Source of the DNA: Physcia stellaris | Lineage: Eukaryota > Ascomycota > Lecanoromycetes > Caliciales > Physciaceae | Assembly (NCBI GenBank): GCA_018902385.1 | Contig: JABSSW010000034.1 | Coordinates: 248,001 to 312,000 of the forward strand | Reading direction: 5' to 3' | DNA: 64,000 nucleotides | Shown: positions 1 through 39,639 of the stretch, one piece after another | Position numbering within the stretch: position 1 is the first letter of the stretch | Layout: every line of letters starts with the position of its first letter | Made by a program: the position numbers and the translations under genes | The notes under the pieces: generated by a model | What the model was told of the DNA's origin: nothing | Databases searched by the model: none | Seen by the model: the letters and a program-made list of their open reading frames with translations, nothing else

Positions 1-1356
1 TGATTCATGTTATCGATATGATACAATTAATATCGAGACTTTTCATGCAAAGGAATTTGATTTGAAAAAAACTGAAAATTGCGACGATTGAATTGTAATC
101 AACAGACGATGTGTTCACGAAATTTCGCAAAAATTTAGAAAATGACATTGAAACGTTAACATATATCATACAAACAGAAATATCTTTTCAAAATCATCAA
201 TTTTTTGATTTATTTTCGTTGAACGTTTGATTGCAACGTCATTGCGACGACGATATTTCATAAATCAGCTCAACGAGAATTTGAAGTTTCGATATTGAAA
301 ACGATTTTCATGATCACGATTAATTCGCTTCGAATACAAACGTTGATAAATGTTTTGAATCGTATAAACAAATCATCGTTTATTGATGCGACGGTTTTGA
401 TTTCTGATTTCAATAAACAGCTCGATGAGCTCATTTTTCATAATGAATTCTCGATCACGAAAAATAAATTTGATTTTGCGTGTATTTTTTTTGCTGATTT
501 CGATATCGTGCTGTTTGTTGATTCAATTTTTGAGCATTTGTATCGTAATATTCAGTCGTTTTGACGTCATGTATCGATTGATAGACTTGTCTACACGATT
601 CTTGACGATGAGAGCATAATTGATAGCATCGAGTTTGATTTCACGAGTATAAAACATTCGACGACGTGTGATTTGATCGAGTTTTCAATTTGATTCAAAT
701 TTTTGTGCAAAAGAAATTTGTTCATCGAAATTTAATAATTGTACATGTTCGCGACGTTCTTGATTGAATAATTCGATGACAGCAGCGAAATCAATAAATC
801 GAAAGTTGCTCGATAAGGCTGATTGATTTGAATTCGAAAGAGGAGCAAACGATTTTGATTTTTCGAATTTGCTGAACAGCACGATTTTTGACGATTTTGA
901 AAGCAAAATCAAAACGTACGTCGTTCTGAAGAAGAAAAACAAAAGCATTACGTTTGAAAGATGATTTTTGAAAAAACTGAATGTGAAAAAAAGTCATAAT
1001 ATCGATATGTTGAAAAATAATAACGAAAATTGAACGAAATCATGATTCGAGCCTTTATAGAGAGAATTTGTAGAGCAATTTTCATACAAACTGATTTTTC
1101 AAGCGCGCGCATTCTGAAATCGTCAATCATAATCAATGAATAGATACGAAACAGTCAAAATATCAAAAAGTGCATATCAATTGTTTTGCAAATGAGATCG
1201 CTTCAAAATTGCGAACGGTAAACGATTCTATTGACTAAAAATTGCTTAGTCACTTTACTAATTGACTTATTAAACATTTTGACTTGTAAAACATTTTCGA
1301 TTATAAAACATCGTTCTAATCGAGGCCAAAACATATTTATGAATTATAATTTACTG
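1..1356. other. AT-rich RIP-like block, unidentified
   Basis: Strongly AT-rich sequence with the same look as the neighbouring retroelement: many TGA/TAA stops and few intact codons. Short open stretches exist on both strands (for example 295-564 plus, 685-948 minus), but I recognise no domain in them. The copia target duplication shows that position 1361 was joined to 6601 before insertion, so this block is not part of that element. It is either an older, degraded repeat or unique DNA reached by spreading RIP. Confidence 0.5.
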
Positions 1357-1361
1357 TCTTA

Positions 1362-1523
1362 TGTTGAAATACAGAATAATATGACTGAATCATGATGTGA
1401 CATACAATACATTCGATGAGTAAACTATCTAGAAAATCTATTTAACTACACGAATGTCATATCTATGTCATATGAAATTTTGACATTTATTGATTCAACA
1501 ACGAGCATCAGATTTTTTTGACA
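1362..1523 (-). repeat. copia 3' LTR (heavily RIPed)
   Basis: 162-bp terminal repeat, TG...CA ends, same length as the copy at 6434-6595. It carries many more T/A substitutions than that copy, for example a gatttttttgac stretch against gatctttctgac in the other LTR. It is the downstream LTR because the element is read on the minus strand. Confidence 0.93.
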
Positions 1524-1929
1524 CATTTTCATGAACTGAACTGCTCGTGATATTTTACTTTTTGAAATTCAATTGATCAACAAAACGATTGAATTTTATT
1601 TTATCGAGCGATTTAATAAATTCGTCAGCTGTCATTTCGTTAATAAAACAATACTCGAATAATATCGCTTTCTTGTTCATCTGCTTTTTAACGTAATGTC
1701 ATTGAACGTCAATATGTTTCGTTCGAAAATGAAATTTCGAATTTTCTGTTAATGCAATTGTTTTTTGATTGTTTGCTTTAATCGTGACAAAATGTTCAAA
1801 TAAATCGAAATTCAAATTCAATTTCTTCAACAATTGAGTGATTCAAATGATTTTTTTTGAAATTTGCGTTTGTGTCATATATTCGATTTCGCACGATGAC
1901 AAGATCACGCACGTTTGCAATTTAAAAAA

Positions 1930-4900
1930 TCAAATAATTGCATTTTCATGAAACGTAAATAAATAAACGTCAATTGAACGACGAATTGATAAATCGTTTG
2001 CATGATTCGCATCGATATAATCGACGAAATCATCAAAATATTCATATACGATAACATAGTTCTGAATATTTTTCAAATAACGCAAAATTCGTTTGACGAC
2101 TTTCATTGTCGTTTCAGAAAAATTTAAATTGTAACGAATCAATTTTTGTACAGCAAACGAGATATTCGATCTCGTTTGAATTCATAAATATATCAATGAT
2201 TCGACGATGATTTGATATTTTTTGATTTGTTGTACGATCGCTTTATAATTTTCATGAATTTTCAAATTCGTTTCGATTTTCATTGAAATTGATATTGATT
2301 TGCAATTTTTCATGTCGAAACGAATAAAAATTTTTTGAATGTAAATCGATTGCGATAACGAAAAAATCTTTTTTTCACGATCACGTGTAACGATCATGTT
2401 CAAATAATGATGACAAAAATCTAAATTCGTCATAAAAAATCTTTTATTCAAAATTTGCTTGAATTTCTTAATTGTTTTCGATTTTTTTGATTCAATAATG
2501 AGCAAATCGTTCACATATATCGAAACAATGAATCGTGTTTTTCGATTAATAAACATCGAATGATTCGATTTCAAACGTTCAAATTCTTGTGACTTCAAAA
2601 ACGTATTCAAAATTTGATATCATTCGCGAAAAAATTGTTTCAAATCATAAAAAACACGACGAAATATTCATATTCATTTTTTTTTTTCGAAATTTTCAAA
2701 TGATCAAATGTAAATTCGTTTTTTCAAAATCGAATTCAGAAAAACGATGACAATATTCATTTGCTCGACATTCAAATTTTTTTTCGCAATAATCGCGAAT
2801 ATCGTTTTGTAAAACATGAATTTGACGATCGAAACATATGTTTCGTTGAAATTAACATCATATGATTGTTCGAATTTTTTAACACATCATCTTGTTTTAA
2901 ATTTGAAAATTTCATTTTTCAAATCTCGCTTAATCTTGAAAACAATTCTAAAAGTGAATATTTTCGTTTCAATTGAGACACTTGACAATCGAACACGTTC
3001 GTACGTTTTCATCTTCTTATGAACGATCATTTTTGCGTCTAAAGTTGCTTTATGCTTCTTGACGTAAAAATCAGACAATGCTTCTTTGATTGTGAGTGAT
3101 TTTTCGTCGATAAATGCTTTGACTTTGACGAAATATGCTTGAATCAACTCAATGAGTTCACGAAAATCGTTTTCGGAATTCATATCATGATCGTAAGCGA
3201 AATCAAAATTCTTAACGACTGTGATTTGACGACAGTAAATCAACGTTGATGCTTTAACAAAATTCTCATAATAGTTTTTATTGACTATCATCGAGATCTG
3301 TTTATTTCAGTTGTTGAGATTTTCTCAATGCTCATTTAAACGTGATTTTGTTGAAAAATTTCGAATTCGAACTGATTTACGTTCAACAATCGTGAAATTC
3401 GAATGAGAATTCGAATGTAATATTCGATCGTCGAAATCAATATCAGTATTCGAATTCGAGTTCACGTTAATGAAATTCACATTCGTATCATTCATATTCA
3501 CGTCATTTGCATTATTTGAAATCGAATTTTCAAAATTCGTAATCATTTCAATATTTTTCGTTGATTTTGCGAAATTTGATTTTCTATTATGATTAAATTG
3601 CGAAATTGATTTTTTTTCATCGATAATATCGATATTTGCAATAAAAATGTTTTGAATAGTAACATTTTGAATAGAAATATTTTGATCATTCGTATCAACG
3701 ATTTCATTTTTCGATTGATCATCGAATTCAAAAAATGTTCAATTGTAAATTTTGTTGAAATATTTCAACATATATGACTCGTCAAAATGAACGTTTTTTG
3801 CTGTAATAATTTTTTTAGAAATCGAATTTCACAAACGATATTGATTAATATCAACATATTTCAGAAATTTGCATTTAATTTCTTTCGAATTGAGTTTTTT
3901 TTGATCAAATTTTTTCTTGAATAACGCTAGTCAGACATCGCAATCAATAAAACGTAAATGATTCAAATTTGATCTTTTATCGAAATAAATCTCGTAAAGA
4001 ATAACATGTTGAATTCGCAATCGAATGCAAAAAAATCGATTTCGAAAATAAACAATCGTTTTCAGTATTTCATTTCATAAAAACGCAAACAAATCATTAT
4101 TTTTCAAAATGACACGAATTGCATTCATTATCGTGTAATTTTTTCGTTTTGACATTTCATTCTGTTGCTTTGCATAAAATGCAAACGACTTTCATAAAAC
4201 ATCAAGCTTCTTGAAAAATTTGTCAATTTTTTTGTTTTTGATTTCATCGTTTTCATCAAAACGTCATCGTTTAACAAAATAATCAAACGTTTGAATCTTA
4301 ATCATGAACATAAAGTCTTTTTTCAAATTCGTGAAAAATTCGTTCTTGATGATATACAAATACAAAAACAATAATTTTGTAGTTTTATTTCTTTTCAAAC
4401 AATAGTAATTCTTGTTGTTTCACGTGAATGAAATAATGAAATTTTCTAAATCTGAATCGAACATCGCGTTTTTTTCGTATACAGAATTTTGAAAACGACG
4501 AGAAAATTTCAATTTCGATTTGTTTGTATTGCAATTTTCACATTGAGAAATTGATTTCGACTTGTTAATTAAATTAACGTCATCAGTCATATTTTGCAAT
4601 CGAATAAAATTCGATCGATTCAAATGTTCTGTGCGACGATATCACAATTGCATCGCTTTTTCGCTGTATTTAGAATTCGAATACAAAACAGTCGAATAAA
4701 CAACGTAATGTGTTTTCTGTCTGATCAAATTAAATGAATATTGATTTTTATTTTTGAATGAGTGTAACACAATTCTATTTGATTCTTTGTGATACATTGT
4801 ACACTTTTTCTGATCGAAAATAACGAATTCGTCGTTCTTGATGAAATGAATCGTCGAAAATAAATTCGCATTGAGTTTCGATACGTGTAAAATTTCAAAC

Positions 4901-5596
4901 AGAATGATCGAAATCTCGATATCATTGAACAACAATTTTGTAAATTTAATTGTTTTCTTATCGACGATAGATATATTGTGATCGTTTGCAATGAACATTT
5001 TTTTTTGCGTGAACAGTTCATTGTATTCGATGAAATCGTGACGATTCGACGTCATATGTTTTGTACAATTCGAATCGACAAATCATTCGACAATCATAAA
5101 TGCAAAATCGTGTTTTGAAAAAATTACGTCGATAACAAACGCAACGAAATAAACGACAATATTTGAAAAATTCGACGATTTATCATCGTTTTTTCTATTT
5201 TTTTTTTTTTTTTTTTTTCTTTGATTTTTTTTTTATTTTTTTGTTTTTTGATTTTTTTCGAACTTTTTTTTGAATTTGTGTCTTTTTTTTTTTCATTTTT
5301 TTTTCAGATGTGAATGTTTGATAAAGCATTTTCATTTTCAATGAGTTTTTGCACATTTTGTTACAGAACAAAAATTTTTTATTTTTTTATCTTTTGATTT
5401 TTTTTTTTTTCGAGTGTTTTTTGACGATTTGAGCATCTCGATTCATTTGAGCACGAAAAACAATTGTCTGATCATTTTTCTTGTTCATGCGATTCAATTC
5501 TTGAAAATTGATCGTTATCTTCTCGAAAGACGGCAATTTTCTGCTTGTAATGACTCGAAAAACATACTTCTTGAAATGATCGTTCAAATTTGACAA
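1930..5596 (-). pseudogene. copia gag-pol polyprotein remnant
   Basis: Fragments of one polyprotein can be followed in order. A short gag-like stretch lies at 5387-5596. A protease/pre-integrase part lies at 4642-5055, with the ILHVSKLNANLFS type motif (usual LHVP.L..NLLS). A CENCNTNKSK zinc-type motif of the gag-pre-integrase domain lies at 4420-4623. Reverse transcriptase lies at 2182-2610 (YVNDLLI; then FCHHYLNMIVTRD and LSQSIYIQKIF, both copia hallmarks). RNase H-adjacent sequence lies at 1930-2142 (KRILRYLKN; later YIDANHANDL...RRSIDVYLF). Frames are broken by stops between and within the fragments. A T-rich low-complexity tract (about 5190-5300) is an A-rich, lysine-coding part of the polyprotein on the coding strand. 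Confidence 0.88.
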
Positions 5597-6410
5597 GAAA
5601 TTTGATACAACTGTTCATTTTTTCATTGAAAAGTTCATATTTCGAAGATTTCGTTGCAAAAATTGAAAAATGACGATAAAGTTACTAAAATCGTTATTGC
5701 AAAAAACTAAAATAATGATGACAAATTTCTGATATGTTGTATGACGTAACGTGAAATCGACGTCAAAATATTGTTGTTGTAAAACATTTCAAACGTCGAA
5801 AATCGAATTCAAGTCGTTAATCAAATCAGCGAATATTGAATCGAATTTGTTGTAAATATATTTTTTCGCAACACGCGCATGATCGTTGTAAATTTTGATA
5901 TTAATCATTCATTCAACAAATGTTGAATTGTTTTTGAATCGTTTTTTCAAATTTTCAATGTTAAATTTCGATCGATTTGAATTTGAATAAACGCAAACGT
6001 ATCAAACATTCATTGTTTGTAAAACATTTTTGATTTTGCGACGTTATGATTTGTAATTATCGAAATCACGTAAATTTTCGAAATTTCAAAACGTGAAATT
6101 CGAATTCAATTCATCGATTTTGATATTTTTCAAATTTTTCATGACGCGTAAAGTGATGATGAAATTATCGAATTTAAAATGTGAAAATGTTTGTATCGAA
6201 AATTGAAAAATGAAATGAAACGATTATCACGTGAAAATGAATATTCGAATATGATTGATTCAGAAATTCGAGTTGATGATTACTAAATCAAATTCGAAAT
6301 GTTTTTTTTTTGAATTTTTGAAAGCGAATATCACAATTTTCACGTTTCAACAACTGAATATTTGCAGTTGAGTGACTAGAAACGAATATCAAAAATAAAA
6401 GCGATTCAAT

Positions 6411-6433
6411 CGCGAAAGCGAGAACTCATAATT
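6411..6433 (-). promoter_or_regulatory. copia primer-binding site, half-tRNA type
   Basis: Directly inside the 5' LTR the minus strand reads TTATGAGTTCTCGC. This resembles the complement of the anticodon arm of initiator methionine tRNA (CTCATAA core), with the middle GCC/CC positions changed in the RIP direction. Priming from an internally cut initiator tRNA is known for Drosophila copia and yeast Ty5. The tRNA comparison is from memory, so the match is provisional. Confidence 0.55.
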
Positions 6434-6595
6434 TGTTGAAATACAAAATAATATGATTGAATCATGATGTGACATACATTGCATTCGATAGGAATTAACT
6501 AGAAGGCCTACTTAACTCTACACGAATGTCATATCTATGTCATATGAGGTCTTGGCACTCATTGACCCAGCAACGAGCATCAGATCTTTCTGACA
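6434..6595 (-). repeat. copia 5' LTR (partly RIPed)
   Basis: 162-bp terminal repeat matching 1362-1523. Mutation load is graded: the inner end is AT-rich, while the outer part (from about 6500) keeps GC-containing sequence, so RIP appears to fade within the LTR toward unique DNA. It is followed by the target duplication TCTTA at 6596-6600. Confidence 0.93.
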
Positions 6596-6977: not shown

Positions 6978-7471
6978 CTAATAAGAGTCAGGATAGGCAA
7001 TAGCATCCTCTTTGGCCTCCCTCTTGTATGAGTCGGGGTACGCGATAGCATCCTCTTTGGCTTTTCTCTTGTATGAATCTGGATAAGCAATAGCAGCGTC
7101 GTTCGCCTCCCTCTTATAGGAGTCAGGGTATGCTATGGCATTTTCGGTTGCCTCTCTTTTGTAAAAATCGGAGTAGGCAATGGCATCCCCGCTGGCCTCT
7201 CTCTTGTATGAATCAGGGTAGGCTATGGCATCCTCTTTCGCGCTGCGTCTGTACGAGTCTGGGTAGGCTATGAAGTCTTCCCCTGCCTTTCTCTTGTAGT
7301 TGTCAGGGTATGCGATAGCCTGATCTGTAGAATCCCGCCTTTCAGCTTCTTACGTCGTCAGCCTTGAAGTTAAGCCGATGGGGAGTTACCCTTTAGGGAT
7401 AGAGACCTACCCAGCGGCACCGCTATAGCGGTCGCAACCAGAGCGTGCAAGAGAATTGTAGAGGTACGCAT
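6978..7471 (-). CDS. Dikaritin-type RiPP precursor (UstA-like), eight core repeats
   Basis: Two exons on the minus strand: 7471-7411, an intron at 7410-7349 (62 bp, GTAGGT donor, CTGAC branch point, TAAG acceptor), and 7348-6978. The join is in phase and gives 143 residues. Exon 1 encodes a secretion signal (MRTSTILLHALVATAIA, then VPL). Exon 2 starts with a dibasic RR and then holds eight units of about 15 residues: five-residue acidic spacer, core AIAYPDSY, KR. Cores in order: AIAYPDNY, FIAYPDSY, AIAYPDSY, AIAYSDFY, then AIAYPDSY four times. Linkers are KR except one RR, and the last core ends at the stop. KR followed by EA is the classic Kex2/dipeptidase pattern. Family knowledge: ustiloxin, phomopsin and asperipin precursors have a signal peptide and Kex2-separated Tyr-containing cores, and they sit beside UstYa genes. 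That holds here. The core is not one I know. The product is unknown; some relatives are mycotoxins. Confidence 0.9.
6981..7334 (-). repeat. 45-bp coding tandem repeat (8 units)
   Basis: Seven full 45-bp units (7334-7020 on the minus strand) plus a final 39-bp unit (7019-6981) that stops before the dibasic codons. Units differ mainly at third positions and in the spacer, while the core codons for IAY and the terminal Tyr are kept in all eight. That pattern suggests selection on the peptide, not a recent slippage array. Confidence 0.93.
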
Positions 7472-8210
7472 TCTGAACGAAGACCAGGTTCAATCAAGAA
7501 ATCTTAATTGATATGCAGATTGATAGAGTTGGGCTGTTCGACCTTCGCGATTTCTAAAGCGGGAGACGTAGGTAGATAGCAAGATGGACAATGTAATGTC
7601 AGCCTGAGATACGGTGTACTTAAATCAGCGGTCAAGGTCCCTCGCTCGGACCTCCTCCCTCGTGATTAGCATACAGCTCTAGAGCCTCCATTCGATTCCG
7701 ATGCCCCACAGCAGCGTCGCAGCTCACGGTCAGGAGAGATCCTAATGGCACAGCAGCGTCGCAACTCACGGTCAGGTGGGATCCTAATGGAGCGTCAGTT
7801 GTCGGACGGACGCCTTGCTATGCTCGTTTAGCAGTTCTGATTCGGCCGAACTTTAACCTAAGAGTGCTGGTCAAGAACTCAGGCAAACCTGCAGCTTGCA
7901 TTAGGTACATCACGCTACTATATCCCACGTAGCAAGGCTCACCAACCGGCCCAATACAGTCACATACATATGCATTCTGTTGTGGTCACCACTGAAGCAG
8001 CCGGAGTGTCTGCATACAAACTTGACGGTGTGGACAAAGCCCGGCAATAGCAGTCCCGATCCTTCTGCGCTACATTCCTCGAAGGTGAGGGGTCGTACCA
8101 GAGCAAGTATGAAGTGATTCGTGACTACAGCCGCTCAAGAATAGTGACAGCTACATCTTCGCAAAGAGAGAGATCTCTGATCGCAGCTGCTCTGTGTTGA
8201 TGAGCTGACA
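7472..8210. promoter_or_regulatory. Bidirectional promoter region, precursor / UstYa-1
   Basis: A 739-bp stretch without a convincing ORF between the divergent precursor gene and the first UstYa gene. It contains the 42-bp tandem duplication at 7708-7791. A shared regulator for both genes is plausible, but I cannot name a binding site. Confidence 0.5.
7708..7791. repeat. 42-bp tandem duplication in shared promoter
   Basis: Two adjacent copies (7708-7749 and 7750-7791) that begin ACAGCAGCGTCGCA and end CCTAATGG. They differ at only a few positions. The duplication lies between the precursor and UstYa-1 start codons. Confidence 0.9.
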
Positions 8211-9004
8211 ATGGCTTCGGAAGGAGCACCGTTTTTGCCTCACAAGGAAGTAAAATTGGATCCGGACCATACCTATCAAGCGACATATTCAAAGCAGCGT
8301 CAATGGTCAAGAGCACTCCTCACACACTTCGGTCTCATAGTGTTGTACACCGTCATCACCATCTTCTTGATCAGATCCCAACGACAGATTGTCGTTCGCC
8401 CACCAGCGGCCGTCGACAATCTTCAATTTAGTTACAGTCCTATGCTGTTCCATAGGCTTAATTCCACTCCCTACGCTGGTCCACCTTCCCCAGAACTTGA
8501 TATGGCTTGGGATACTCTGCTAGCTCCAATGCATATCGCTGTATCCAAAGCCGAACTGGAGCGCGACAATCAAGAATCCGTCGCTCTGCCCGAGAGCGGC
8601 GGATATCTCGGTTGGCTAGGTGTGTTCCATGAACTACATTGCATCGTGAGTCATCTGTGCTTGATCACTCGCTGATACATGGACTGACGGCGTTGAAGAG
8701 GATGCTCCGCGAATGGAACTACCGCTCCTACTACCATCAAAACCTGTCCAAGAAAGAAGAGGAGCATCTCGGACAGCATGCGGATCATTGCTTTGAGATG
8801 CTGCGTCAATCCGCAGTTTGCCATGCTGATGCTTCGCTCACTACTTTCGCGTGGCATCCTGAGCGGTCGAGACCGATGTTCAATGCGAGCGAGTCGTTGC
8901 ATACGTGCGTGGATTGGGATGTGCTTATGAGGTCTATGGAGAATAGGGTGGTGGATGAGGCGGAGATACTACGGTTGCAAAACCCGTTGTCGCAGAACGG
9001 ATGA
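8211..9004 (+). CDS. UstYa-family (DUF3328) oxidase 1
   Basis: Exons 8211-8645 and 8699-9004, with a 53-bp intron (GTGAGT donor, CTGAC branch, phase 0); 246 residues. A short cytosolic N-terminus is followed by one membrane helix at about residues 36-56 (LLTHFGLIVLYTVITIFLI), then a lumenal domain. Both copies of the family HxxHC motif are present: HELHC just before the intron and HADHC in exon 2. A late CVDWDVL element matches the usual C-terminal C.DW motif. UstYa proteins are thought to be copper-dependent oxidases that close ether or C-C macrocycles on RiPP core peptides and hydroxylate side chains. Its location next to the repeat precursor fits this. The start ATG is the first in frame before the helix. 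Confidence 0.92.
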
Positions 9005-10353: not shown

Positions 10354-11884
10354 ATGGCCACGAGCCGCATAGGAGAACTTGCAGCGATCATTGCCACGAA
10401 CACGAAGCAAATCGATGCATATCTTGCAGATACAGGACTACCGGGTCTATCGTTCGATCCAGATAGCCCAGCTCAGGTGCTACTAGACGACAGAGTGATT
10501 GCTTCGCGTCAAGCTATTCTTGATGCGACGGATGAGCTTCATGCGTTGATGCAAGGACCAATTGACATTCTTACAAGACAGCCTGTCAGTACAGAAGCGA
10601 TCATGTTGAAGAGTCAACTGCGTCCAACTAATTCAGCAATCGATAGTTCAACTTTCTCGTCAGCCTTGAAGCTATCACCAAATTTGGGCTTGCGTCCTCT
10701 TTCCCAGCCGGCAGTGACAGAACGACGTTTGCAGGTCTTGCTGAGGCCAGCGGACTCCCCGAAGCTCACGTCCGACGGCTTCTACGACATGCCATGGCAT
10801 TCAGGGTCTTCCATGAACCCAGTGAAGGCGTGGTATGCCACACGGCAGCCTCTAAGGCCCTTGCTGACACTCCTTTGCTACGACAATACATTGGCATGGT
10901 CTCTGAGGAATTATGGCCTGCAGCGACAAAGGTCAACCAAATGACTGTAAGGAAAAACAAGTAATTGGACTGACGATTGACAGACCGTGGAAGCACTAGC
11001 GAAATGGCCAGGATCCGAGGAGCCACACAATGCGGTAAGCTCCAGCTCTTCTGTCTCCGCACTTTTCATCCTGATATCCTGGCAAGGGATTCAACATTGC
11101 GCACAATACCGATGCTACAATCTTTGGCGAAATTGCCAAATATCCTGATAGGGACCAACGTTACGCGGACGCTATGACGTACTTCTCGAATGGTCCAGGC
11201 CTGGAGCATCATCACATAATAAAAGGATACGATTGGGCCTCAGTTGGAGAAGGGACTATCGTAGACATAGGAGGCTCTCATGGTTCCCTCAGCATTGCGA
11301 TCGCACAACAATTTCCGTTGTTGCGGTGTATAGTGCAAGATAGACCACAGGTTATCAGCTTCGGCCAGGACAGCTTGCCTTCAAATCTCCAGGGCCGCGT
11401 ACGGTTTGTGGAACATGACTTTTTCGAAGAGCAGCCCATCAAGGACGCAGACGTTTACATTCTGAGGTGGATCCTTCACGACTGGTCCGACAAAGATGCC
11501 GCTCGCATTCTACAGCGACTGATACCGGCTCTCAGGCTGGGAGCGAAGATACTGGTCCTTGAGCAAATTCTACCAGCACCAGGGGAGGTCTCGAAGTATC
11601 AGGAGAAGGCGTATCGGTGAGCGGGTGCTTCGAGCAGAGGTTCTGGTGTGCGCTTGGCTAAATCTCAATCCAGGTCGATGGATTTGGCAATGTGGGCCTT
11701 ACACAATGCAAAGGAGCGAGATATGGGGGACTGGGAGGCACTGTTGGGGATTTCCGATCCAGGATACAGCCTCAAATCGGTGACAAAACCTAAGGGTTCG
11801 AGATTGAGTATCCTCGAGATTATTTGGGATCCGCAAAGGACGTCGTCAGCCGCCGCAGTCAGTGAGACAGGCATTGCTCGCTAG
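10354..11884 (+). CDS. O-methyltransferase family protein 1 (SAM-dependent)
   Basis: Five exons: 10354-10584, 10647-10931, 10984-11034, 11087-11616, 11674-11884; 435 residues. Exon 2 might instead end at 10946 (better GTAAGG donor), which would add five residues. The shorter form restores the family sequence ATK-TVEALAKWPGSEEP. There is a winged-helix dimerisation region (LLRHAMAFRVFHEP) and a SAM loop VDIGGSHGS, in which the usual third Gly is Ser. The catalytic His lies in WILHDWSDKDAARIL, with a C-terminal ALHNAKERDMGDW helix. Related fungal enzymes methylate phenolic hydroxyls; in RiPP clusters a methyltransferase may act on the peptide N-terminus, so the substrate is open. Exons 2-4 match the paralogue at 50455 in length. 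Confidence 0.9.
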
Positions 11885-13167: not shown

Positions 13168-14201
13168 ATGACGGGCACCGTCATCATCACAGGAGCCAAC
13201 GGCTCCCTTGCCATTCCGGCCGTCCAGCACCTCCTCGCAAATTACCCCAGTTACACTGCCGTGTTGACTGTTCGCAACCTCATGGATAGCGATATCAACA
13301 CAAAGAAGCTACGTGCGACCATTGCAAAGTTCCCCGACGCCAAAACTTCGCTTTACCAGCTCGATCTTGCAAACCTCTCAGCTGTAAACGAATTTGCGAA
13401 CAATATCGCCGAGAAAATCCAACAAGGCACTCTCCCCCCTCTCGCTAGTCTCATTTGCAATGCCTATCACTGGAACCTGGTTGGTGGAGTCGAACTCACG
13501 GAAGACGGCTACGAGAAGACCTTCCAAGTGAACCATGTCGCTCATGCGGCCTTAGTCCTCCGACTTCTCAGCAGCTTCGGCTCTGAAGGCGGCCGTGTCG
13601 TGCTTCTTTCAAGCGACTCACACTGGCCTGGCAAGAACAGCCTTGAGAAATACTCACCTGCCATACCCGATGACTTGGAATTGCTGGTGAAACCGGGTGC
13701 GGACAAAACTCCTGATAACATGGGGCGTGGATTCCAGAGATATGCCATTTCGAAGCTTGTGGTGGTCACTTGGATGTATGCGCTGAATCGGTATTTGAAA
13801 GAGGTATGCTTAAGATCTAACCTCAAGCTAAAGTAATTAGAGCACCACTAATGGACTGCTAGGAGCCCAAATTTCGCAATATCACAGCTGTCGCCATCAA
13901 TCCAGGCAATCTGAGTGACTCTCGCGCATTGCGAACCAATACCCCTACTTTTCTTGTCTTGATGTCCAAGTTCATCATCCAGCCACTACGCTTTCTTATG
14001 CGCTTTATGGATCCCACAATGCGCACTTCTGCCGAAGCTGGGGCCGACGTGGTTGATCTCGCAGTCGGAAAAGCCCACCCACAAGAACGTGGCTACTTCA
14101 CTCTTCTCAAACCAGACGCCAGTGCCCCAGAAAGCCTTGACGAGAAAAAGCAGGAAAAGCTGTGGGAGAAGACTCTGCAGTGGACAAAGACCACGCTCTA
14201 G
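13168..14201 (+). CDS. Short-chain dehydrogenase/reductase (SDR)
   Basis: Exons 13168-13803 and 13863-14201 with a 59-bp intron (GTATGC donor, CTAG acceptor); 324 residues. The N-terminal nucleotide-binding loop is TGANGSLA, so the last Gly of the usual TGxxxGxG is Ala. The NAG position reads NAY (LICNAYHW). A serine at LLSSDSHW and the catalytic pair YAISK follow. The C-terminal lobe (INPGNL, then helices to the end) is complete. Such enzymes reduce ketones or oxidise alcohols with NAD(P)H; the substrate cannot be told. The position between the RiPP genes and the cupin/FAD oxidase pair suggests tailoring, but no direct link is visible. Confidence 0.88.
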
Positions 14202-14420: not shown

Positions 14421-15177
14421 TTAATCCATCTTCTTTCGATCCGAGAATTTCCTCTGAAGGTACGATGCCTCCATCTTCTCACACGCTAATGCCCAATCGG
14501 TTGTCCATTTTCTGTAAAAGGGCTGATATCCCAGCATAGCCCCCACCCATCTACCGATTACGATACCTAAAATCCTTGACAGGTTACGCCCAAAAGGTAC
14601 CCACCACGGGACGGATAGATACGAGCCACCAGCATCGAACATCTAACCAAATGTGCTCAATGTAAAAAAATGTCGCCAGCTTTACAATGATTGAGAGGTG
14701 GAAACCGCGACACACGAAAGATTGCGTGAGTTGAAAAGTATGACCCACACATACGAGCTGGATCAAATCCATGCGTCCACCTCCCATCACAACCTCATCC
14801 TGGTACCTGTACCAATTCTCGAAGAACACGGTATCCAGCCGGAACAGCTCTGCTGCCTCCCCACCTGAGAGTAGAAACCTAGTTGTTGCTCCAGTGTACT
14901 CAGCGTCTTCCTTGCTTCCCTCTTGTAGCAGCGGTGGAAACATTCGATGACTAGTCCACGGCGCTACCCTGACCTGGCCATCCCCAGGGCCAATGATGCG
15001 GTCGCATCCCTCGATCTCAAGTCCCAGTCGACCCTCCAAGACCTCCATGTACTCGCTCTGATAGGGGTGAAAGTGCGCTGGCGGTCTTTGCGCGCCCAGA
15101 GCAAGGATTTGCGGATGCCGATCTTGGACAGTCACTTCGAACGCGAACGCACAGTTCGGGCGGGAAACCACGCGCAT
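14421..15177 (-). CDS. Cupin-domain protein
   Basis: Two exons on the minus strand, 15177-14755 and 14642-14421, intron 112 bp (GTATGT donor, GTTAG acceptor, phase 0); 214 residues. The cupin core has the metal-ligand pattern HFHPYQSEYMEVLEGRLGL followed by the second motif around GPGDGQVRVAPWTSHR. A His/His/Glu first motif and His second motif are thus present. The C-terminal exon is hydrophobic and aromatic (VPWWVPFGRNLSRILGIVIG) and may pack on the sheet or a membrane. Fungal single-cupin proteins of this type occur in secondary-metabolite clusters as oxygenases, isomerases or dehydratases; which one this is cannot be seen. It is divergent from the FAD oxidase gene. Confidence 0.85.
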
Positions 15178-16078: not shown

Positions 16079-17807
16079 ATGTCTCATCTCGTCAAACAAC
16101 TGACTTTACTTAGCCTCTTGTGCCTCACCACGGCCTCAACTGTCACAATTGCAAGAAACAGTACTGCAGCAGCATGCCAGAAACTTGAGGTATTGTTTCA
16201 AGACTTTAACGTTTTGTCTTCGGAGAGGAACTACACCTCGCTGAGTACGGAAAACTGGTATACACATCATCTTTTTGACTCTTGGTGCGCCAAAGCTGAA
16301 CATCAAAAGGTCGCAGACCGCGTGGGCGAAGCCTTCCTGTATCGTACAACCAAGACGAACGTCAGAGGTCCAGCAGATCGTCCGATTGCTGACTCGCCGG
16401 AATGTTCCGTTTGCTATTCGTTCCGGAGGCCATATGCCATCTCCACTCGCAGCAAATATCAACGATGGGGTTCTCATTGACATGGCCTTGATGAATGGGG
16501 TAAGCTACGATGCTGCTCGAAACGAGGCAAGGGTGGGAGCAGGCCAAAGATGGCGGGACGTATACCATGCGCTCGACGGCTACAATGTGACTGTGGTAGG
16601 AGGCAGGGTGCTGGATGTTGGCGTAGGAGGTCTAATCCTGGGATGTGAGTATGTCTCAAACTTTCAATGAATTAATGCTGAGGGTGCAGGTGGTTTGTCA
16701 TACCTATCCGATCTCCACGGTCTCGCTTGTGACAATGTCGTCAACTTTGAGGTATGCCCTTATAACCTAGACAATTGTATCCCACTGACTCAGAACAAGA
16801 TTGTCCTTGCGGATGGATCAATCGTCAATGCCAATGCGAAGTCCAATTCAGATCTTTGGTGGGCGCTCAAGGGAGGAAGTAATAACTTTGGTGAGAATCT
16901 GGCAGTTAGAGCCTTGAGACTTTCCTAATATAGCCAGGTATCGTAACGACATTCACCCTATCTACATATCCTATACACGACGTTTGGGGTGGTAGTAAGA
17001 CATATACACTTGACCAACTACCTGCTCTTTTCTCCGCCCTGACGGAATACCAAACCAAACCCAACAAGGACCCTTACGCAAACCTCATCATGCAAGCTTT
17101 CATCACGAACGCGAGTATCGGTGCGTTCGTAAACATGGTTTATCTCAAACCCGAAGTCTCTCCCGCCGCTTTCAATCCCTTCTACTCCATTCCCACCGTC
17201 ACCGATACGACAAAGCTCCAGACCCTCACCGAATTGATAAGCGGTCAACTAGTTCCAACAATCCCTCGGTACGAAGCCTTCTGCCTCCAAAACAAATAAG
17301 CCACCTCCAGAGCTAACCTCTTCCAGATTCGACTGGTTCACCACCACCTTCAAACCCACAGTGCCACTCTTCTCGCAAATCAGCCGGATCCTGAAAACAG
17401 CCCCCGAGGTGCAGACCTTAAAATCGTTGACAGCGGGTTCCCTGGCCCTGGCACTGCAACCAATCTCCGCCAGCGTCGGTCACGCGGGTAACCGTCGCGG
17501 TGGCAACGCCCTGGGCCTGGAAGCCAGCCACCAGACCTGGTTCACGCTCGACACCGCTTACTGGAGCGGCGCCGACGACGGGGCCGCGCACACCGCGACG
17601 GGAGATCTCCTGGCCAGGATTGAGAACGTGGCGAGGAGCGACGGGAATTACCTTCCCTACCAGTTCATGAACGATGCGAGCTATGGTCAGAGTGTTATTG
17701 AGCATTATGGCGCTGCGAATGTGCAGAAGTTGAAGGCTGTGCAAGCGAAATATGATCCTAATCTCGTGTTCCAGAAACTGGTTCCTGGAGGCTTCAAGCT
17801 GCCTTGA
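16079..17807 (+). CDS. Secreted BBE-type FAD-linked oxidase
   Basis: Six exons: 16079-16257, 16310-16644, 16690-16751, 16800-16890, 16938-17268, 17327-17807; 492 residues. The intron 16752-16799 is 48 bp and stop-free, so it could be retained, but splicing restores the family sequence [13 protein letters not shown] signal peptide covers about residues 1-25. The FAD PCMH domain has the flavin-binding His near residue 101 in [30 protein letters not shown] and a C-terminal BBE segment ([14 protein letters not shown]) follow. The VGVGGL region lacks the Cys expected for a second covalent flavin link, so it is probably a mono-covalent enzyme. The family does two-electron oxidations with O2, often on alkaloids or polyketides outside the cytosol. 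Confidence 0.9.
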
Positions 17808-23411: not shown

Positions 23412-24399
23412 CTAGGGCTTCCTCCCAATCGTCACCCAGTATCCCGCCTCCTTACCCTCCTGCTCCGCCAAATCCTTCACGCACTCATTTTGAAACCCTT
23501 CAATCTCAGCCGGCGAATAACCCATCCCGTCCAACAATTTCGGAATAGCATGATAGTACAGAGGCCCGTATTCCCTCACCGCATGCTCCCCGATCTTTCG
23601 GGTCTCCGGCCTGCTCCCTACCGCCCAAGTGCCCATCGGGATCCGGTATTCGATCGTCTGCACGTCGACCAGACCGGCTTGCTTCATGTAGCCACTGACG
23701 TGCTTTCCTGCACGGAAGTCCCATCCTCGCTTCTCCCCCGCCTTGTGCAGCGCTTGCAGCCAGCCCCATTCGCCGCTGCAGTACTGACCATGGAGGAAGA
23801 GATCGAGCGCGAACTCTTGCATCTCCACCCAGCCGCCGCTTCGCAGAAGGGACGCCATGGCACGGACATAGCCCGGCCAATCCGACATCCCGAGCACGAG
23901 CAGCCGACTGAATATGAAGTCTGCCGAAGAGAGGGACAGGCGCTCGTCCTGGCTGAGGAGGGCGCGGATTTCCCCTTCGATGAAATGGACATTTGAAGGC
24001 TTTGGGCGGGCGGGTACGGGGGATAGGTCGATGCCGTAGACCTGGGCGTCCGGGTAGTTGGCACCTAGGTAGCAGGATACGGTGCCGGTGCCGCAGCCGA
24101 CGTCGATGAGAAGGTGAGGGTTCTGCAATGGGGCGTGGATGACCTGGTCGTGCATCATTGCTACGAGAGCAGATGCTTGGTCTTCTAGACGGGCGATTTC
24201 GATCGAGCTGCGAGGGAGGGTCTGAGTCCTCATCAAAGCACGCTAGGATGATATCTTACTCGTTGGGAAGCGCGTAGTCGGATTGTGTTTTGTGGTAAGT
24301 GATGTTGCGGCTCTGGCTACCAATTTTGTTGCTTGTTGGAGGCCTTTCAGTGGCTTCATCTTGCCCAGCCTTAGGCGGAGTGGGTTCTTGCTCCTCCAT
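23412..24399 (-). CDS. LaeA/UMTA-type SAM methyltransferase
   Basis: Two exons on the minus strand, 24399-24260 and 24207-23412, intron 52 bp (GTAAGA donor, CGCAG acceptor, phase 2); 311 residues. The join restores YALPND-SIEIARLEDQ, the typical entry into the domain. SAM motif I is LLIDVGCGTGTVSCYLG, the following acidic position is in YGIDLSP, and WVEMQEF matches the post-motif strand. It is the class of fungal methyltransferase that includes LaeA-like proteins and small-molecule methyltransferases. It lacks an obvious nuclear signal, so I cannot say regulator or biosynthetic enzyme. The start at MEEQEP is preferred; an upstream in-frame ATG at 24576 exists. Confidence 0.85.
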
Positions 24400-27199: not shown

Positions 27200-29233
27200 G
27201 AGGAGAACGAAAAGCGAAAAAGGGGAGAAGGGGAGGGGGGAGCGGAGATGAGAGGAAGAAAGTGGAGAGGGGTGGAAGGCTAGGTAGCTGGAATGGGAAT
27301 GGAGGCTTTAGAACCGTGGGCTTCGAGACGTCGATGCGGCCATGAATACACTCTTTTGACCAGTTGGTCTCGTTTTTATTTTATTTTGGGCGGGAACTGT
27401 GCATCCTGTTTTTCTCAGGGACCCTTTTGCGAAATCAAATCCTCCATGCCCAATACGAGACTATGAATGCTGAGATCGATCCTTTGTGAAGTGCATCCAT
27501 GAAAAGGACTTGGAGGATTCGAGAAGGGATATCTGGGGTGCTTTCACTCTAGTGTCTATGCCGCGCGTGACCACCTCTCAACATTGCTATTGAGAATAAC
27601 TCCCAGAGCTTGCGCGTCCGTGGATGCGACGTTTTAAAGCACGTTAGCGATCGGCATAATTGTCAGTGATAAGATGGATAAACTGAGACGAGACTTGATG
27701 CGAACTACAAACCTAGCTTTCAGACTATTGATAGAAGGCAGTCATGCACCACCAACAAAAAAAAAAAAAAAAAAAAAGCGAAGAGGGCTCGGATAAGAAT
27801 TTGATATGATTGAGGCTTGGAACAGGATATTGGTACTCTGAATTTAGAGATTGAGAGAATAAAGGAGGTGGGCGTACTCGTACTGAGATCTCCAGCCGCC
27901 TCCCCCTCCCCTTGATTTCAGCAGCTCCACTTCCGTCCTCGAACTCAACTTCTCCACGCCATCCTCACCTGATTTCAAGAGCCCGCTCTAAGATCTCGAA
28001 TACATCCCCCGTCTCTCGCCGGCCTTGGACTCCAAGCATCGTCCACGAGGATTTGGCGATCCTTTCATCTCCTTACTCTGTGGTGTCAGATGTGCTTCCC
28101 TGCCGCCTGGCAGCGTCCTCGAGTCCAGCACGATGGCTGGAGATGTCGCTCCAAACGTGGCTGCTGGCGGTTGCGTTTGATACTACTGTGGGTGAGCTGG
28201 GTGGGGGTGTGGGAGAGTAATGGCAGGAGAGCTATAGCGTGAAAGAGAAAGAGAAGGAAGGCAGGAAAATGAAAAAAACACCCCTGAACACATTCTCGAT
28301 TTGCTCTGGACATTGCACCTGTTTCGAGATCTGCTTCTTGCTATTGCGTGTCAGTTGGTAAAACAGCTAGAGCTCGGGATTCTGCCCAGGGATTTGATGG
28401 ATAGCAAATCTAGAAGGTCTATTCAGATGTCGGGATATGGAATCTCATGAGTGACTTAGGTGAATAGTTAATGAGAGACCGAGAGGCTTGGCGGATTTTT
28501 ATCGAGCTCAATCGGGCTTGGTATCTAGATTGGGGCACCGAGACGGAGGAATTGGTTGAAGCACAAATTTTGGTGGAGAGCTTTACTTGGTCCCGGGGCA
28601 GTGATGGATTTCATGTAGGACATGATTGGGGCGAGGAGGCTGTTTGCCTGGATGGAAGCGGAGAACGATCTGGCATGGGAATGAGGTAGGTGGGAAATGG
28701 ACTTCTCTTTGCTGTTATTGAAATCTCGTGAAAGGATGTATAGCTATGAGGTGTATGCGGATCTCAGAGCGGGAAGGGGAAGTATCGAGAGATTGATTGA
28801 GGCTCATTGGGTTTTGAGGCTTCTTCTCGATTTTGTTATTGTGGATGGTGGTTGCTGTAGGAGGAGATTTACTATTCGCTGTTTTCCTATGAAGCTCGAT
28901 ACTTATTCGGTGCAATATCAAATACAATGTATGACTTTACTTTAAGCAGATATCGTGATCCTTTCCATTGGGTGAATAGAATTTTGATCCGTCATACTGA
29001 TTTTAGAGCCGTTTTTCTTGAAGGGGCGAAGTAGAATCTCATCTTACAAATTCAAGCCTGATCTATCAGTTCAAGATGCTATTCTTCACCCCAACGATCC
29101 TGCAATCGCGTCACAGCGCAGCGTACACCATAACATTCTCGCAAGGATCGAATTCAATCTCCATATTTTTGAGATTTGGTAAAATCTTCGGATTTCTTTC
29201 CGGCAGACCTTTCAGTATGGCAATAGCTACATC
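27200..29233. other. Intergenic, no gene seen
   Basis: Two kilobases of low coding signal with a 22-base A run near 27757 and purine-rich stretches. The ORFs at 27912-28220, 28471-28689 and 28697-28945 have no motif, and their composition follows local low complexity. Confidence 0.4.
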
Positions 29234-29692
29234 CTAATCGACACCATAGCCTGGAACTAGGGTTTCGCTCGCAAAAAAGTCATCTGATGGAAGCATATCA
29301 ATCAACCTGCGAAGACGACCTAGCTGTTTCACTGTTGGAATCCAGCTCCAACTCCAGCGCTTCGATGAACATGGGCCCCCAAGCCGGATTGTTTTGTAGA
29401 CTTGGAATGACTTGAGTAAGCCAGTGAAATGGCCCCCAGCCAGCGCGAGCTCATGGTCGTGGACGTCCCGCCAACCTCGAGAGTTACCAGGGTGTAGGTT
29501 GCACACCCAAGTAATTTCTGTGGATACCACTGAGTAGATATTTGCCATCGGCACTGAACATATCAGCGGTCGTGATATTGACCACAGAATTGCCCACAGC
29601 TTTTGAAATAGGGTTCAAGGCGTCGCAACTATTGATGATTCTGAAATCAGCACCTAACTTTCTGAGAAAAGGCAGTAGCTGCGTACCTTGAA
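29234..29692 (-). pseudogene. Gene fragment left of hAT insertion (F-box-like gene, 3' part)
   Basis: Minus-strand coding-like sequence in two overlapping frames (29720-29484 and 29554-29234). These contain LRKLGADFRIINSCDALN, ITTADMFSADGKYLLSGI and a SWIPTVKQLGRLRRLIDML stretch. It ends exactly at the hAT target duplication. Together with the minus-strand sequence right of the transposon (39640-40566) it appears to be one gene split by the insertion. Frame changes suggest further decay or unseen introns. Confidence 0.5.
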
Positions 29693-30177
29693 GTCGAGAA
29701 CAAGGCGCCCAATAGTACACTAAACTACTTGCACTATCGGTGCACCACGGTTTCGAGCCCGAATAGTGCGTATAGTTTGGGCCATTTATCGCATCATACT
29801 ATTTAGTATAGTACAGAAAAAGAGTGATAGTTTTGGTGCGTATCAGTAGTATGTGTGATGCAAATGATTATTATATTGTTCAACTTTACGAAATGTTCGA
29901 ATGTTTCAATTCTGAAAATATTATCAGATTTCTGAATAATAAAATACAAAACATCAGCTAGCGTGCATCATCAGATTTTTTGTTAATGATGTTGCAATAA
30001 ATTACACGCATTTTTGATATTTTTGATAAATTTCAGTCTCAAATTTCTGTATTTTTCTCGGATAATCGAATTTTCGAGCAAATTTCAAACATCAATTTTC
30101 AGAAATTTTGTTTTCGTTATTCTATCTCAATTCAATTCAATTTTTCACACATCAACAATTCACGTTATATATCAACA

Positions 30178-32601
30178 ATGTCTCAATCAAGTCGATTCGA
30201 ACTATCTGATGCTATTATTATGTTAACGGCTGCATCGAATAACTCTTTTATCAAAGCGACGATCGTCAAATCCAAACTTCAGCCTCGCAAAAATCGAGAT
30301 GTCGATGAGATTAACATGTCGAATAGTCAACGCGACAAATTTTCAGCGTTTACAACGCGTCGAATCAGCGAACGACGATTTATAATTTTTCAGTCTGTGT
30401 CGTCTGAATACTCGAAGCGAGTTTCAAAACGAGCGCGAGCACGAACGAATTCGATCGTGAAAACTGTCGTGAAAATTGCATTGAATATTCAGATTCAAAA
30501 AACGATTTCGAAAATCGACGAATCACTATTCAACGAATTCGACGAAAAATCAGTCGAATTTGCAATCGATTTTGCAATCGATACAACAATATCACAGACG
30601 ATTTCGAGTCGCAAAACACGAATTTCGATTGACAAGTTTTTTCGCAAAATCACGTCGAATATTTATCATCATTTCACGTTGTTTCGAAAACAAGAAAAAA
30701 TTTTCGCAAAATGCAAATATTGCATCATCAAATACGTCAAATTCGACGATATCATGAAATTCAAAATGCATTTGCGATTAAAACATCATATCGATTTTCG
30801 AAATCGTGACGAAATTCGTTTAATTTTTTACGATGACGATTTTGTTTTCGCTTTCAATCGTCAATTTGCAATGAAAAAAAAATTGAAAAATCGTCAAATT
30901 GCAAAACACATAATCGCTTCGTTGAATAAACAGCATTTTTTGTATTTGTATTTTCGATGAATCGTATTGATTGACGTTTTTTTCAAACAAATGCGCAATA
31001 GAAATTTTCGAATGTTTTTACATTACATCAACAAATTTGCGAACGCTCTACTTTCTGCTTCGAACAATACTATTCAAGCGAAAATCATGATATTGTACGA
31101 AAAAAGCAAAAAACGACTATGTCATAAATTGAGCGTTGCGATCATTTTCATACATATTACATGCGATGTTTGATCTTCGTCAAATCATTTGAGTTTTCTA
31201 GATTTCGTGATTCATTTCATTGACGATGCGAAAATTTTTCGTATTTTGTTGTTGAGTTTGAAGAAAATTCAAAATGCTCATAGCGATGCAAACATGACAG
31301 TCATTATTTTGCATACGATTCGAGATTTCGAGTTTCGCAACAAGTTGAAATATTTCGTCATGAATAACGTTGATTTTAACGATACAATGATGAAAATTAT
31401 TGCGCAAAATTTTTGAAACAACGATTTTTTCAAATACGATTTCGTTGAACATCGATTTCGTTGCTTGAATCATATCATTAATTTATCAATTCAGAATTTT
31501 TTATTTGATCAACATTTCGACAAACAAGCACAAACATTCGATGTGATTTTTAACGACGAAAATTTACAACATTACAGACGTTTCGAATTTCAAAAGAAAT
31601 TGCACAACGTCAATACACACATCATGAAGAATAATCAACGCATACAGAAATTCAAGCAATTCAGCGACAATCACATGTCTGTGCGAAACATGAAAGTGAA
31701 ATGAAATTCGTGATTTGTCATGATGAATTGATTTATCGAACAGATCAAAAAAACATTGCAATTATACATTTTGAACGAAAATATTCAGAACGATAATATC
31801 AGCTCATTCGAATGATTCTTTTTTCGAGACATCAGAAATTTTTTGAGATCATTTCAAGAAATCACGAAGAAAATGAAAAATCGTCTTGCTATAATCAACG
31901 ATTATTTATCGACGTTGAATTATTTGTTTGTTCATTACGAGAATGCGACGTATGATTTCATCGACAATGATTTCATGCAATTATTTCTTGATGCTGAATT
32001 CAAGAATCTGCAAAAATACTGAGACAAAAACATCAAAAAGATTTCCGTTTATATCGTCGTCGTGATTCTGAATTTTGCACAGAAATGAAACTATTTCGAA
32101 ACGCATTGAAATTCATTGTCAATTGTTGAAGCAAAAATCAAAATTACGAAATTGTGAAGCACGTACAATCGCATTTCTCTTGCTACAACAGTCAGTCAAT
32201 TTTCAGAAAAAAGATCGTCAGATTTGACTTTTTGAATGTATCGAAATCACGAACAAAGACATACAGACGAGTTGAAACAATATCTCATTGAGTCGTTGAA
32301 TTTCAACAGAGATTTGAATTTAATCATTTGATGATTAAATCAACGAACGAGATTATCAACATTGATTTGCATGATTTTGAATATTTTCTGTATTTCATTT
32401 ATGTTTTTCGAATCAGAACGTGTATTTTCTTCGTTGAAGCACATGATAACGTCAAAACGAATTTCATTGATTTCGAAGATTATCGAAGCGCTGAAATGCA
32501 TCAAAAATTGAATGAAAATCGATATTTTCATCGACGAAAAACTCATCGTCGTATTGACTTTGATCGAAAAAATGAAAAAATTTACAGAAAAATTGAATCA
32601 T
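30178..32601 (+). pseudogene. hAT transposase remnant
   Basis: The first frame (30178-30960) ends with a BED-type zinc finger: CKYC at its start and HLRLKHH at its end, with about 20 residues between. Later pieces carry hAT core features: HFIDDAKIFRILLLSLKKIQ and a motif like LKYFVMNNVDFNDT at 31189-31416 (usual DNA.sND), and KLHNVNTHI at 31465-31704. A possible C-terminal dimerisation part lies at 32328-32606. At least ten stops break the frame, many from TGG-to-TGA changes. Confidence 0.8.
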
Positions 32602-32921
32602 TGTAAGAAATAAAAATTCAGAATTTTCGAAAATGCGATTCGCATTTCGTCAAACAATTCGATTATCGAAGTTCGAATGACTTCGAAGAAAATCAATCTC
32701 AATCACTTTACAACTCGATCAACGATAAACTCAACAAGTTCATATTGTCAATCGAAATCGATCGAATTCGTACGATTGAATAAGTAAAATGTGAATAAAA
32801 AACAATTGCAAAACGTAATCTGTTTTGTAACGATTAATAAATCAATATATTACATTTCAAACTATACATTTTTGATGTCAATAATTCATTAAATTATATT
32901 ATTTTTAATACGAATTTTACA
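32602..32921 (+). repeat. Gypsy 5' LTR
   Basis: 320 bp, aligned end to end with 38911-39230. More heavily converted to A/T than its partner, for example attgtcaatcgaaatcg here against actgtcagccgaagccg there. Confidence 0.93.
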
Positions 32922-33403
32922 TTTTAATCGCTATCATATTTCAAAATGATGTCACTCGTGTATACTTAACAGAATACAGTTCTGTTGTTTCGCATACATC
33001 ATGTCGAACTCTGATAATGATTTGCTTTTTGAATTTGTCGAAAATGTTGACGTATTTTTTTGATTGATTTATTACAAGCAACAGATCGAAAAAAATCATA
33101 AGAAAAAAATCAAATTACAAGCTCGAAATATCGAGCGCTCGAAATTTGTAATCTTTATTTCATTTGTTTTTACTTCATTTACTTTTGCTTTTGATTCTGT
33201 TTGGAAATTTTTCGTCATGAAGATTATCGAAACGACATCGAATCAATATGAAAAAAGAACTACAAAAAGTGAAAGAAATATTGCAAACAAATGAAAAAGC
33301 AATTCACGCAAAACAACGTGAATCACATGATTCAATTTTCGAATTTAGTCAAGATCGCATACGTTGATATTTATTTTAAATCAAATAACAATGCGAACAA
33401 GTT

Positions 33404-38403: not shown

Positions 38404-38910
38404 TCGAACGATGAATCATTGAATAAAAATGTGAAATGAAATAAAAAAAAAATTTCGAAATTTGAATATCAATACGATCGCGATTAATGAACGTCTATCG
38501 CGTTACACATTTTTTCATGATATCGATGTTGATATTCGAAATAAAAAAATGAAAAAATGAAAAGATGTTCGAATTCAGAACTTTTTGTCAACAAGTCAAT
38601 TGTCAATCATCATATCGAAAATTGTGAATTGTACGAAATCAGACATTCGATCATGAAAACAGCAAACAGTTGATTCATCAAATTATGCTTTTTCTGAATT
38701 ATTCAAGAAAATGTTTTTTCAGATTTTTAACGCAGACTGATTATTGAATTCGAACAAAAATATTTCGAGATGCGAAAATCACAATCATAATGATTTTTCA
38801 AGTCAACGCAAGATCAAAACAAGTAGAACACGTCAAAACAAGCAGAATACGTCAAAGTTTCTGTTAACATGTTGATCTCAAGAAATTTCGATGCTTAAAG
38901 AAAAGACGTA

Positions 38911-39230: not shown

Positions 39231-39235
39231 ATCAT

Positions 39236-39631: not shown

Positions 39632-39639
39632 GTGGAGAA

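Follow-up and report, generated by a model that had tools for sequence, protein, structure and literature searches.

Excerpts of a survey of fungal genomes (PMC7329392) report 7878 Kex2-processed repeat proteins in 1461 fungal strains, sorted into 838 types plus 2560 stand-alone proteins; 1758 of the 7878 have DUF3328 genes nearby. According to the same excerpts, the neighbouring gene is the position where DUF3328 genes are most frequent around the repeat-protein genes, and Tyr is present in the repeats in 65.6% of cases with DUF3328 neighbours versus 38.2% without. Two definitions of a dikaritin are given in excerpts of PMC12048977, one based on the presence in the cluster of a DUF3328 protein with two HxxHC motifs, and the five-gene definition of Ding et al., which includes a tyrosinase, a methyltransferase, multiple DUF3328 proteins, and a transporter or peptidase. 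The core motif of ustiloxin and phomopsin is EDYXI, as stated in an excerpt of PMC6339444.

Lichen fungi have also been explored. The excerpted part of PMC12048977 covers a survey of 111 lichen-fungus genomes, which turned up UstY genes but no conserved repeats in its two conserved clans. It further states that O-methyltransferases (OMTs) had never before been reported in dikaritin clusters, and that DUF3328 proteins also catalyse different reactions, among them hydroxylation and chlorination. Lichen RiPP clusters with low similarity to the asperipin, ustiloxin, and phomopsin clusters are mentioned in an excerpt of PMC12711211.

The locus described here lies in a stretch of 64,000 nucleotides (hereafter, the window; C34:248001-312000) of a genome assembly of 44.0 Mb in 147 contigs. 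On the minus strand, from 7471 to 6978, a signal-like exon of 20 codons is followed by a probable intron of 62 bp and by eight units of 13 residues. Very probably, this gene codes for a secreted repeat precursor that Kex2 processes and from which a ribosomal peptide of the UstY type is made. Its features are the following:

7411 to 7471, minus strand: exon 1, MRTSTILLHALVATAIAVPL plus 1 nt, signal-peptide-like with a hydrophobic run; 61 nt, ATG at 7471
7349 to 7410, minus strand: probable intron of 62 bp, GTAGGT ... CTGAC ... TAAG, with the GT at 7410
6978 to 7348, minus strand: exon 2 including the stop codon, TAG at 6980-6978
7290 to 7334, minus strand: unit 1, DSTDQAIAYPDNY-KR
7245 to 7289, minus strand: unit 2, KAGEDFIAYPDSY-RR
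7200 to 7244, minus strand: unit 3, SAKEDAIAYPDSY-KR
7155 to 7199, minus strand: unit 4, EASGDAIAYSDFY-KR
7110 to 7154, minus strand: unit 5, EATENAIAYPDSY-KR
7065 to 7109, minus strand: unit 6, EANDAAIAYPDSY-KR
7020 to 7064, minus strand: unit 7, KAKEDAIAYPDSY-KR
6981 to 7019, minus strand: unit 8, EAKEDAIAYPDSY, then stop
7472 to 8210: intergenic region of 739 bp between the divergent precursor and UstYa1 genes

The coordinates and strand proposed in a preliminary description of this DNA were borne out by the ATG at 7471, the 61-nt first exon, and the TAG at 6980-6978. Exon 1 codes for 20 residues with a hydrophobic run, ending in AIAVPL, which were read by eye as signal-like. Exon 2 begins with AERR, directly followed by unit 1, and the repeat frame is free of stops from 7349 down to the TAG. 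No ATG-led open reading frame of at least 20 aa covers the repeats in their frame. The repeat exon has no ATG and lies behind a probable intron, and for this reason it escapes ATG-based ORF calling, as the preliminary description had supposed. Between the precursor and UstYa1, at about 7690-7800, an imperfect direct repeat of some 40-45 bp was observed around ACAGCAGCGTCGCA.CTCACGGTCAGG, which is possibly regulatory.

Three acceptors keep the reading frame and would give introns of 62, 65, and 86 bp; the last intron base would be 7349 (TAAG), 7346, or 7325 (CTACAG), respectively. The RR ahead of unit 1 is kept with the 62- or the 65-bp intron and lost with the 86-bp intron. The last base of the 62-bp intron lies 9 nt past the branch-like A of CTGAC. 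A comparable acceptor is found in the adjacent UstYa1 gene, where the intron of 53 bp (8646-8698, ending in ACTGACGGCGTTGAAG) has an AAG acceptor 10 nt past ACTGAC, and where the splice junction fits the homologue P0012 from Calogaya (HELHCI-RMLREW). Moreover, the window precursor has a first exon of 61 nt with a phase 1 intron after codon 20, and another repeat gene on the same contig, at about 104.6 kb (L014), has as read a first exon of 64 nt with a phase 1 intron after codon 21. The UstYa1 acceptor and the near-identical place and phase of the intron in the second gene support an intron with such an acceptor in the precursor. The 62-bp intron with a branch point that had been described earlier is probable; its GT at 7410, branch-like site, and frame agree, although the two longer alternatives are also in frame.

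The eight units are separated by seven dibasic Kex2-type linkers (KR or RR). Units 1 to 7 have 13 residues plus the dibasic pair, which makes 15; unit 8 has 13 residues, with the stop codon right after the last Tyr, so that the eight 15-residue units claimed previously are in fact seven plus a shorter last one. The residues I-A-Y-x-D-x-Y are invariant in all eight units, although their codons differ. Within the core, the A before I is replaced by F in unit 2, P by S in unit 4, and S by N in unit 1 and by F in unit 4. The Tyr-rich core AIAYPDSY given in the preliminary description holds as a core under selection, with its invariant part being narrower and its leading A not fixed.

Codon-by-codon comparison of the eight units gave pS of 0.741 and pN of 0.071 for the core IAYPDSY (pN/pS 0.095), versus pS of 0.719 and pN of 0.355 for the five linker positions (pN/pS 0.494). 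For the dibasic pair, pN/pS was 0.127. Among all 1716 choices of 7 out of the 13 columns, only 6 reach the conservation of the core. IAYxDxY is fixed even though synonymous differences approach saturation, which indicates that the units are old duplicates kept for the peptide. This pattern of selection shows that the precursor gene is real and that its core is under selection. A chance open reading frame as the source of the repeats was rejected by this contrast in pN/pS and by a shuffle control, where runs of at least three similar dibasic-flanked segments occurred once in the real window and in none of 10 local mononucleotide shuffles.

The genes to the right of the precursor are the following:

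8211 to 9004, plus strand: UstYa1 (PF11807), exons 8211-8645 and 8699-9004, motifs HELHC and HADHC; junction fits P0012
9086 to 9918, minus strand: UstYa2 (PF11807), multi-exon, motifs HQLHC and HIRHC; limits and exons by eye
about 10354-11884, plus strand: O-methyltransferase, PF00891 Methyltransf_2 in frame 11075-11617 (E 2.9e-29); limits and introns approximate
13168 to 14201, plus strand: SDR, possible cluster member, adh_short 28.6 bits against a cut-off of 26.6; limits approximate
14584 to 15177, minus strand: cupin protein, possible cluster member
16245 to 16667: FAD_binding_4 match of an FAD-binding oxidase, possible cluster member; BBE match at 17253-17804 below cut-off

UstYa1 stands head to head with the precursor at a distance of 0.74 kb and is followed by UstYa2 and then by the O-methyltransferase. 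Both UstYa proteins carry two HxxHC motifs. Profile searches placed none of the 15 tyrosinase (PF00264) matches of the genome on contig C34, and no S41 peptidase there either, the single S41 match of the genome being on C28. For MFS transporters, 9 of 342 candidates were scored, too few to decide. A second methyltransferase (Methyltransf_23 and relatives; 23415-24242, minus strand) and a single-frame cytochrome P450 (48577-50142, minus strand) were observed in the window at 16 and 41 kb from the precursor, respectively, and were left out of the cluster. AT-rich blocks (GC about 0.25-0.39), at 1-6500 and about 28000-40000 of the window, lie around a block of about 50% GC.

With units separated by dibasic sites, the window gene has the repeat layout of a Kex2-processed repeat protein, and it fits the pattern of DUF3328-adjacent Tyr repeats reported in the excerpts of PMC7329392. 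It shares with the ust-RiPS/dikaritin repeat proteins treated there the putative signal peptide, the repeated Tyr units, the Kex2 sites, and the adjacent UstYa. The best reading of the locus is a dikaritin in the DUF3328-defined sense, as judged by the two HxxHC motifs of UstYa1 (HELHC/HADHC) and UstYa2 (HQLHC/HIRHC), with what would be a new core in a known class. As to the five-gene definition, the methyltransferase and multiple DUF3328 proteins are present at the locus and a tyrosinase match is absent from the contig. The locus shares with the ustiloxin and phomopsin clusters a repeat precursor, several DUF3328 genes, and a methyltransferase, but differs from them in that its core is not EDYxI and that its contig carries neither a tyrosinase nor an S41 match; in this genome, EDYxI is found in the precursor at C28. 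The absence of the EDYxI core and of these two matches puts the window gene outside the ustiloxin/phomopsin subtype, which was rejected given the core IAYxDxY. The dikaritin-type assignment made earlier stands in terms of precursor plan and neighbouring UstYa genes, and not in the sense of that subtype.

The window locus resembles the asperipin-2a cluster, whose core contains several aromatic residues and which is not known to contain a tyrosinase. According to the excerpts available, that cluster contains no peptidase gene (PMC12048977), in keeping with the lack of an S41 match on C34, and has one DUF3328 gene (PMC7329392), versus two at the window locus, where an O-methyltransferase is also present. 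The lichen RiPP Clan R1, also from lichen fungi, likewise combines two UstY genes with an OMT; in contrast with the window locus, with its repeat precursor, this clan has genes for a tyrosinase and an FGE-sulfatase, and no repeat precursor was identified in it (PMC12048977).

As had been anticipated, the core appears to be new: AYPDSY, IAYPDSY, AIAYPDSY, and IAYPD are absent from the open paper library, while the supplementary lists of published surveys could still hold the same core. The strings YPDSY, YPDNY, and YSDFY occur in that library only in unrelated papers, the last two as judged by title.

Homologues of UstYa1 and of the precursor were searched. For UstYa1 exon 1, 41 homologues were obtained, the best (P0001) at 94% and another close one (P0003) at 81%, with longest contigs of 26 and 42 kb, respectively. 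Named relatives include Gallowayella weberi (66%), Calogaya cf. arnoldii (60%), Lecanora helva (50%), and Lobaria immixta (49%, with 72% of the query aligned). A named relative that is not from a lichen is the Dothideomycete Byssothecium circinans (44%); Calogaya and Gallowayella belong to the Teloschistaceae. These relatives suggest that the host is a lichen-forming Lecanoromycete, probably one of the Teloschistaceae. Three of the relatives (P0001-P0003) run into intron sequence, which points to intron-unaware prediction. The preliminary description had proposed searching the unit against fungal proteomes, with relatives far from UstYa genes speaking against its reading. Exon 2 of the precursor, compared with 5.8 billion proteins, returned two candidates and none that scored; this is weak evidence of absence, since exon 2 offers gene callers no ATG. 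In its own genome, exon 2 matched itself and a 31% segment on C75 (E 0.235), which was taken as chance. Neither exon 2 nor the UstYa1 homologue P0012 had a match among solved structures.

The 20 UstYa profile matches of the genome were grouped into 11 loci, and the sequence around all 11 was scanned, mostly for about 10 kb on each side; the stretch was shorter at C20 (about 5 kb) and, on one side, at C32 (about 5.5 kb). Repeat genes were found near UstYa at 5 of the 11 loci, three by a strict rule, the fourth by the tandem-repeat part, and the fifth by a looser scan. Besides the window gene, these are:

C28 at about 157 kb (L021:1530-1889), minus strand: EDYxI-type repeat precursor (EDYFI/EDYYI), mostly AVEDYFISVDNKKR; six units in the scan, eight as read
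C34 at about 104.6 kb (L014:2978-3271), plus strand: repeat precursor, three units of EPMGRSYAISGLDEGLEKR; the distance to a UstYa gene is about 3 kb, that to the window gene 150 kb
C15 at about 136 kb (L018, about 1056-1265), minus strand: repeat gene with four units around IMIEAYH, flanked by two UstYa genes; a signal-like exon and a probable intron precede the repeats
C69:102075-103031 (L024:7676-8632), minus strand: fusion frame of 319 aa, with UstYa and MFS genes in its vicinity

All five have Tyr in the unit and a first exon that is signal-like by eye, and in the four besides the window gene a probable intron was read between this exon and the repeats. No Tyr-bearing repeat gene was seen in the scans of the remaining six loci, which indicates that UstYa genes often stand without one. 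The same scans revealed no repeat precursor in UstYa-free sequence (20-64 kb of the window, L011, and L012). The association count covers the UstYa loci plus these few UstYa-free stretches. An 18-residue repeat at C15 (L017:7505-7777), which has no dibasic sites, and low-complexity or short repeats from the scans were not counted as precursors.

At C28 (about 143-157 kb; L020, L021), a partial S41 match lies about 2 kb from the UstYa gene and partial tyrosinase matches lie about 12 kb from it; by gene content, this region is a putative ustiloxin/phomopsin-type set. The three units of the C34 gene at about 104.6 kb are identical in DNA, in contrast with the diverged units of the window gene. 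In the C69 frame, at least six 22-residue units of the TDWYADSAQG type are followed in the same frame by some 180 conserved C-terminal residues, in which the HxxHC motif occurs twice (HQYHC and HTIHC). This fusion has 37 homologues, including Xylaria, Zopfia, and Trypethelium; repeats and domain are retained in those examined (10 sequences, 14 aligned), several of which have a signal-like N-terminus. Precursor and modifying domain may thus be united in one protein here. Speaking against this, it scored 14.8 bits against the Pfam UstYa profile, below the cut-off of 25, and profile comparison found no relation between the fusion family and the UstYa1 family. AlphaFold models of the two families were of low confidence (mean pLDDT of 47.8 and 49.9, respectively). 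The strings WYTDSA and WYADSA are absent from the open paper library.

A Kex2 repeat protein may also give a linear product, such as a secreted signalling or surface peptide, with the adjoining UstYa acting on a different substrate. Ala is found at unit position 2 in seven of the eight units, and Ala at this position resembles the dipeptidyl-aminopeptidase spacers of pheromone precursors. In the excerpts of PMC7329392, 6120 of the 7878 repeat proteins have no DUF3328 gene nearby. Furthermore, the search returned UstYa1 relatives from several lichens and from one Dothideomycete but none for the precursor, and the actual substrate of UstYa1 could therefore be a different one. However, the precursor and UstYa1 share a divergent intergenic region and are accompanied by a second UstYa and an OMT, the core has two invariant Tyr, and the same pairing recurs at four more UstYa loci (the examined set being UstYa loci), making a linear product unlikely. 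An alpha-type mating pheromone precursor would have the same plan of signal peptide and Kex2 repeats. The core of ascomycete alpha-pheromones is of the W-C ... P-C-W type, whereas that of the window gene has neither W nor C. In this genome the exact pheromone pattern (with GQ) had no match, and with two mismatches it gave 67 matches versus 35 for a reversed control; from these 67, two adjacent one-mismatch copies on C11 were kept as the pheromone assignment. This typical precursor, at about 197.5 kb (L035) with two copies of WCYRPGEPCW, together with the core lacking W and C, refutes a pheromone identity for the window gene, which we regard as having a negligible chance of being correct.

The gene could also be a decaying or silent relic, given its setting beside an AT-rich, transposon-bearing block. 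To its left, up to about 6.5 kb, there is AT-rich DNA with pieces of Pol_BBD and RVT_2, presumably Copia-like, and this AT-rich DNA with retrotransposon polyprotein debris ends about 0.5 kb from the precursor. The open frame, the strong purifying selection that acts on the core as well as on the dibasic pairs, and the GC of 0.44-0.51 across the gene, versus about 0.27 in the left AT-rich block, make this very improbable.

For the precursor of a UstY-type peptide, we infer a pathway in which splicing, processing, cross-link, and methylation, as well as the product and its role, are predictions. The signal peptide would direct the precursor into the secretory pathway, where Kex2 would cleave after KR/RR and a carboxypeptidase would strip the basic pair, giving eight 13-mers, of which six would end in IAYPDSY, one in IAYPDNY, and one in IAYSDFY. 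Trimming would remove the first five or six residues, which vary between units. The two conserved tyrosines would be the targets of the UstYa1 and UstYa2 oxidases, the most likely result being a macrocycle closed by an aryl ether or by a C-C bond, and a phenol or carboxylate may be capped by the O-methyltransferase. The calculated [M+H]+ of IAYPDSY is 828.377 for the linear peptide, 826.362 for the -2H form, and 840.377 for the -2H+CH2 form; for the -2H forms of IAYPDNY and IAYSDFY it is 853.373 and 876.377, respectively. A UstYa-modified product is backed by the four further UstYa loci of this genome, each with a nearby gene in which Kex2-type Tyr repeats follow a signal-like exon and a probable intron. 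More tentatively, and with considerable doubt, the locus may represent a lichen dikaritin subclass in which two UstYa enzymes, without a tyrosinase, link the two Tyr of Y-P-D-S-Y into a bridge before O-methylation takes place; the genome would then maintain at least five Tyr-core precursors with differing cores near UstYa.

Precursors of this kind are already known, 1758 DUF3328-adjacent ones having been counted by 2020 (excerpts of PMC7329392), and what appears to be new is the core. In the genome of one apparently lichen-forming fungus, a group in which precursors of this type have been difficult to find, five Tyr-core repeat genes lie near UstYa genes. The window gene supplies peptide masses to seek, and its repeats, behind a probable intron in an exon without ATG, with four other genes built alike, suggest where to look for precursors.
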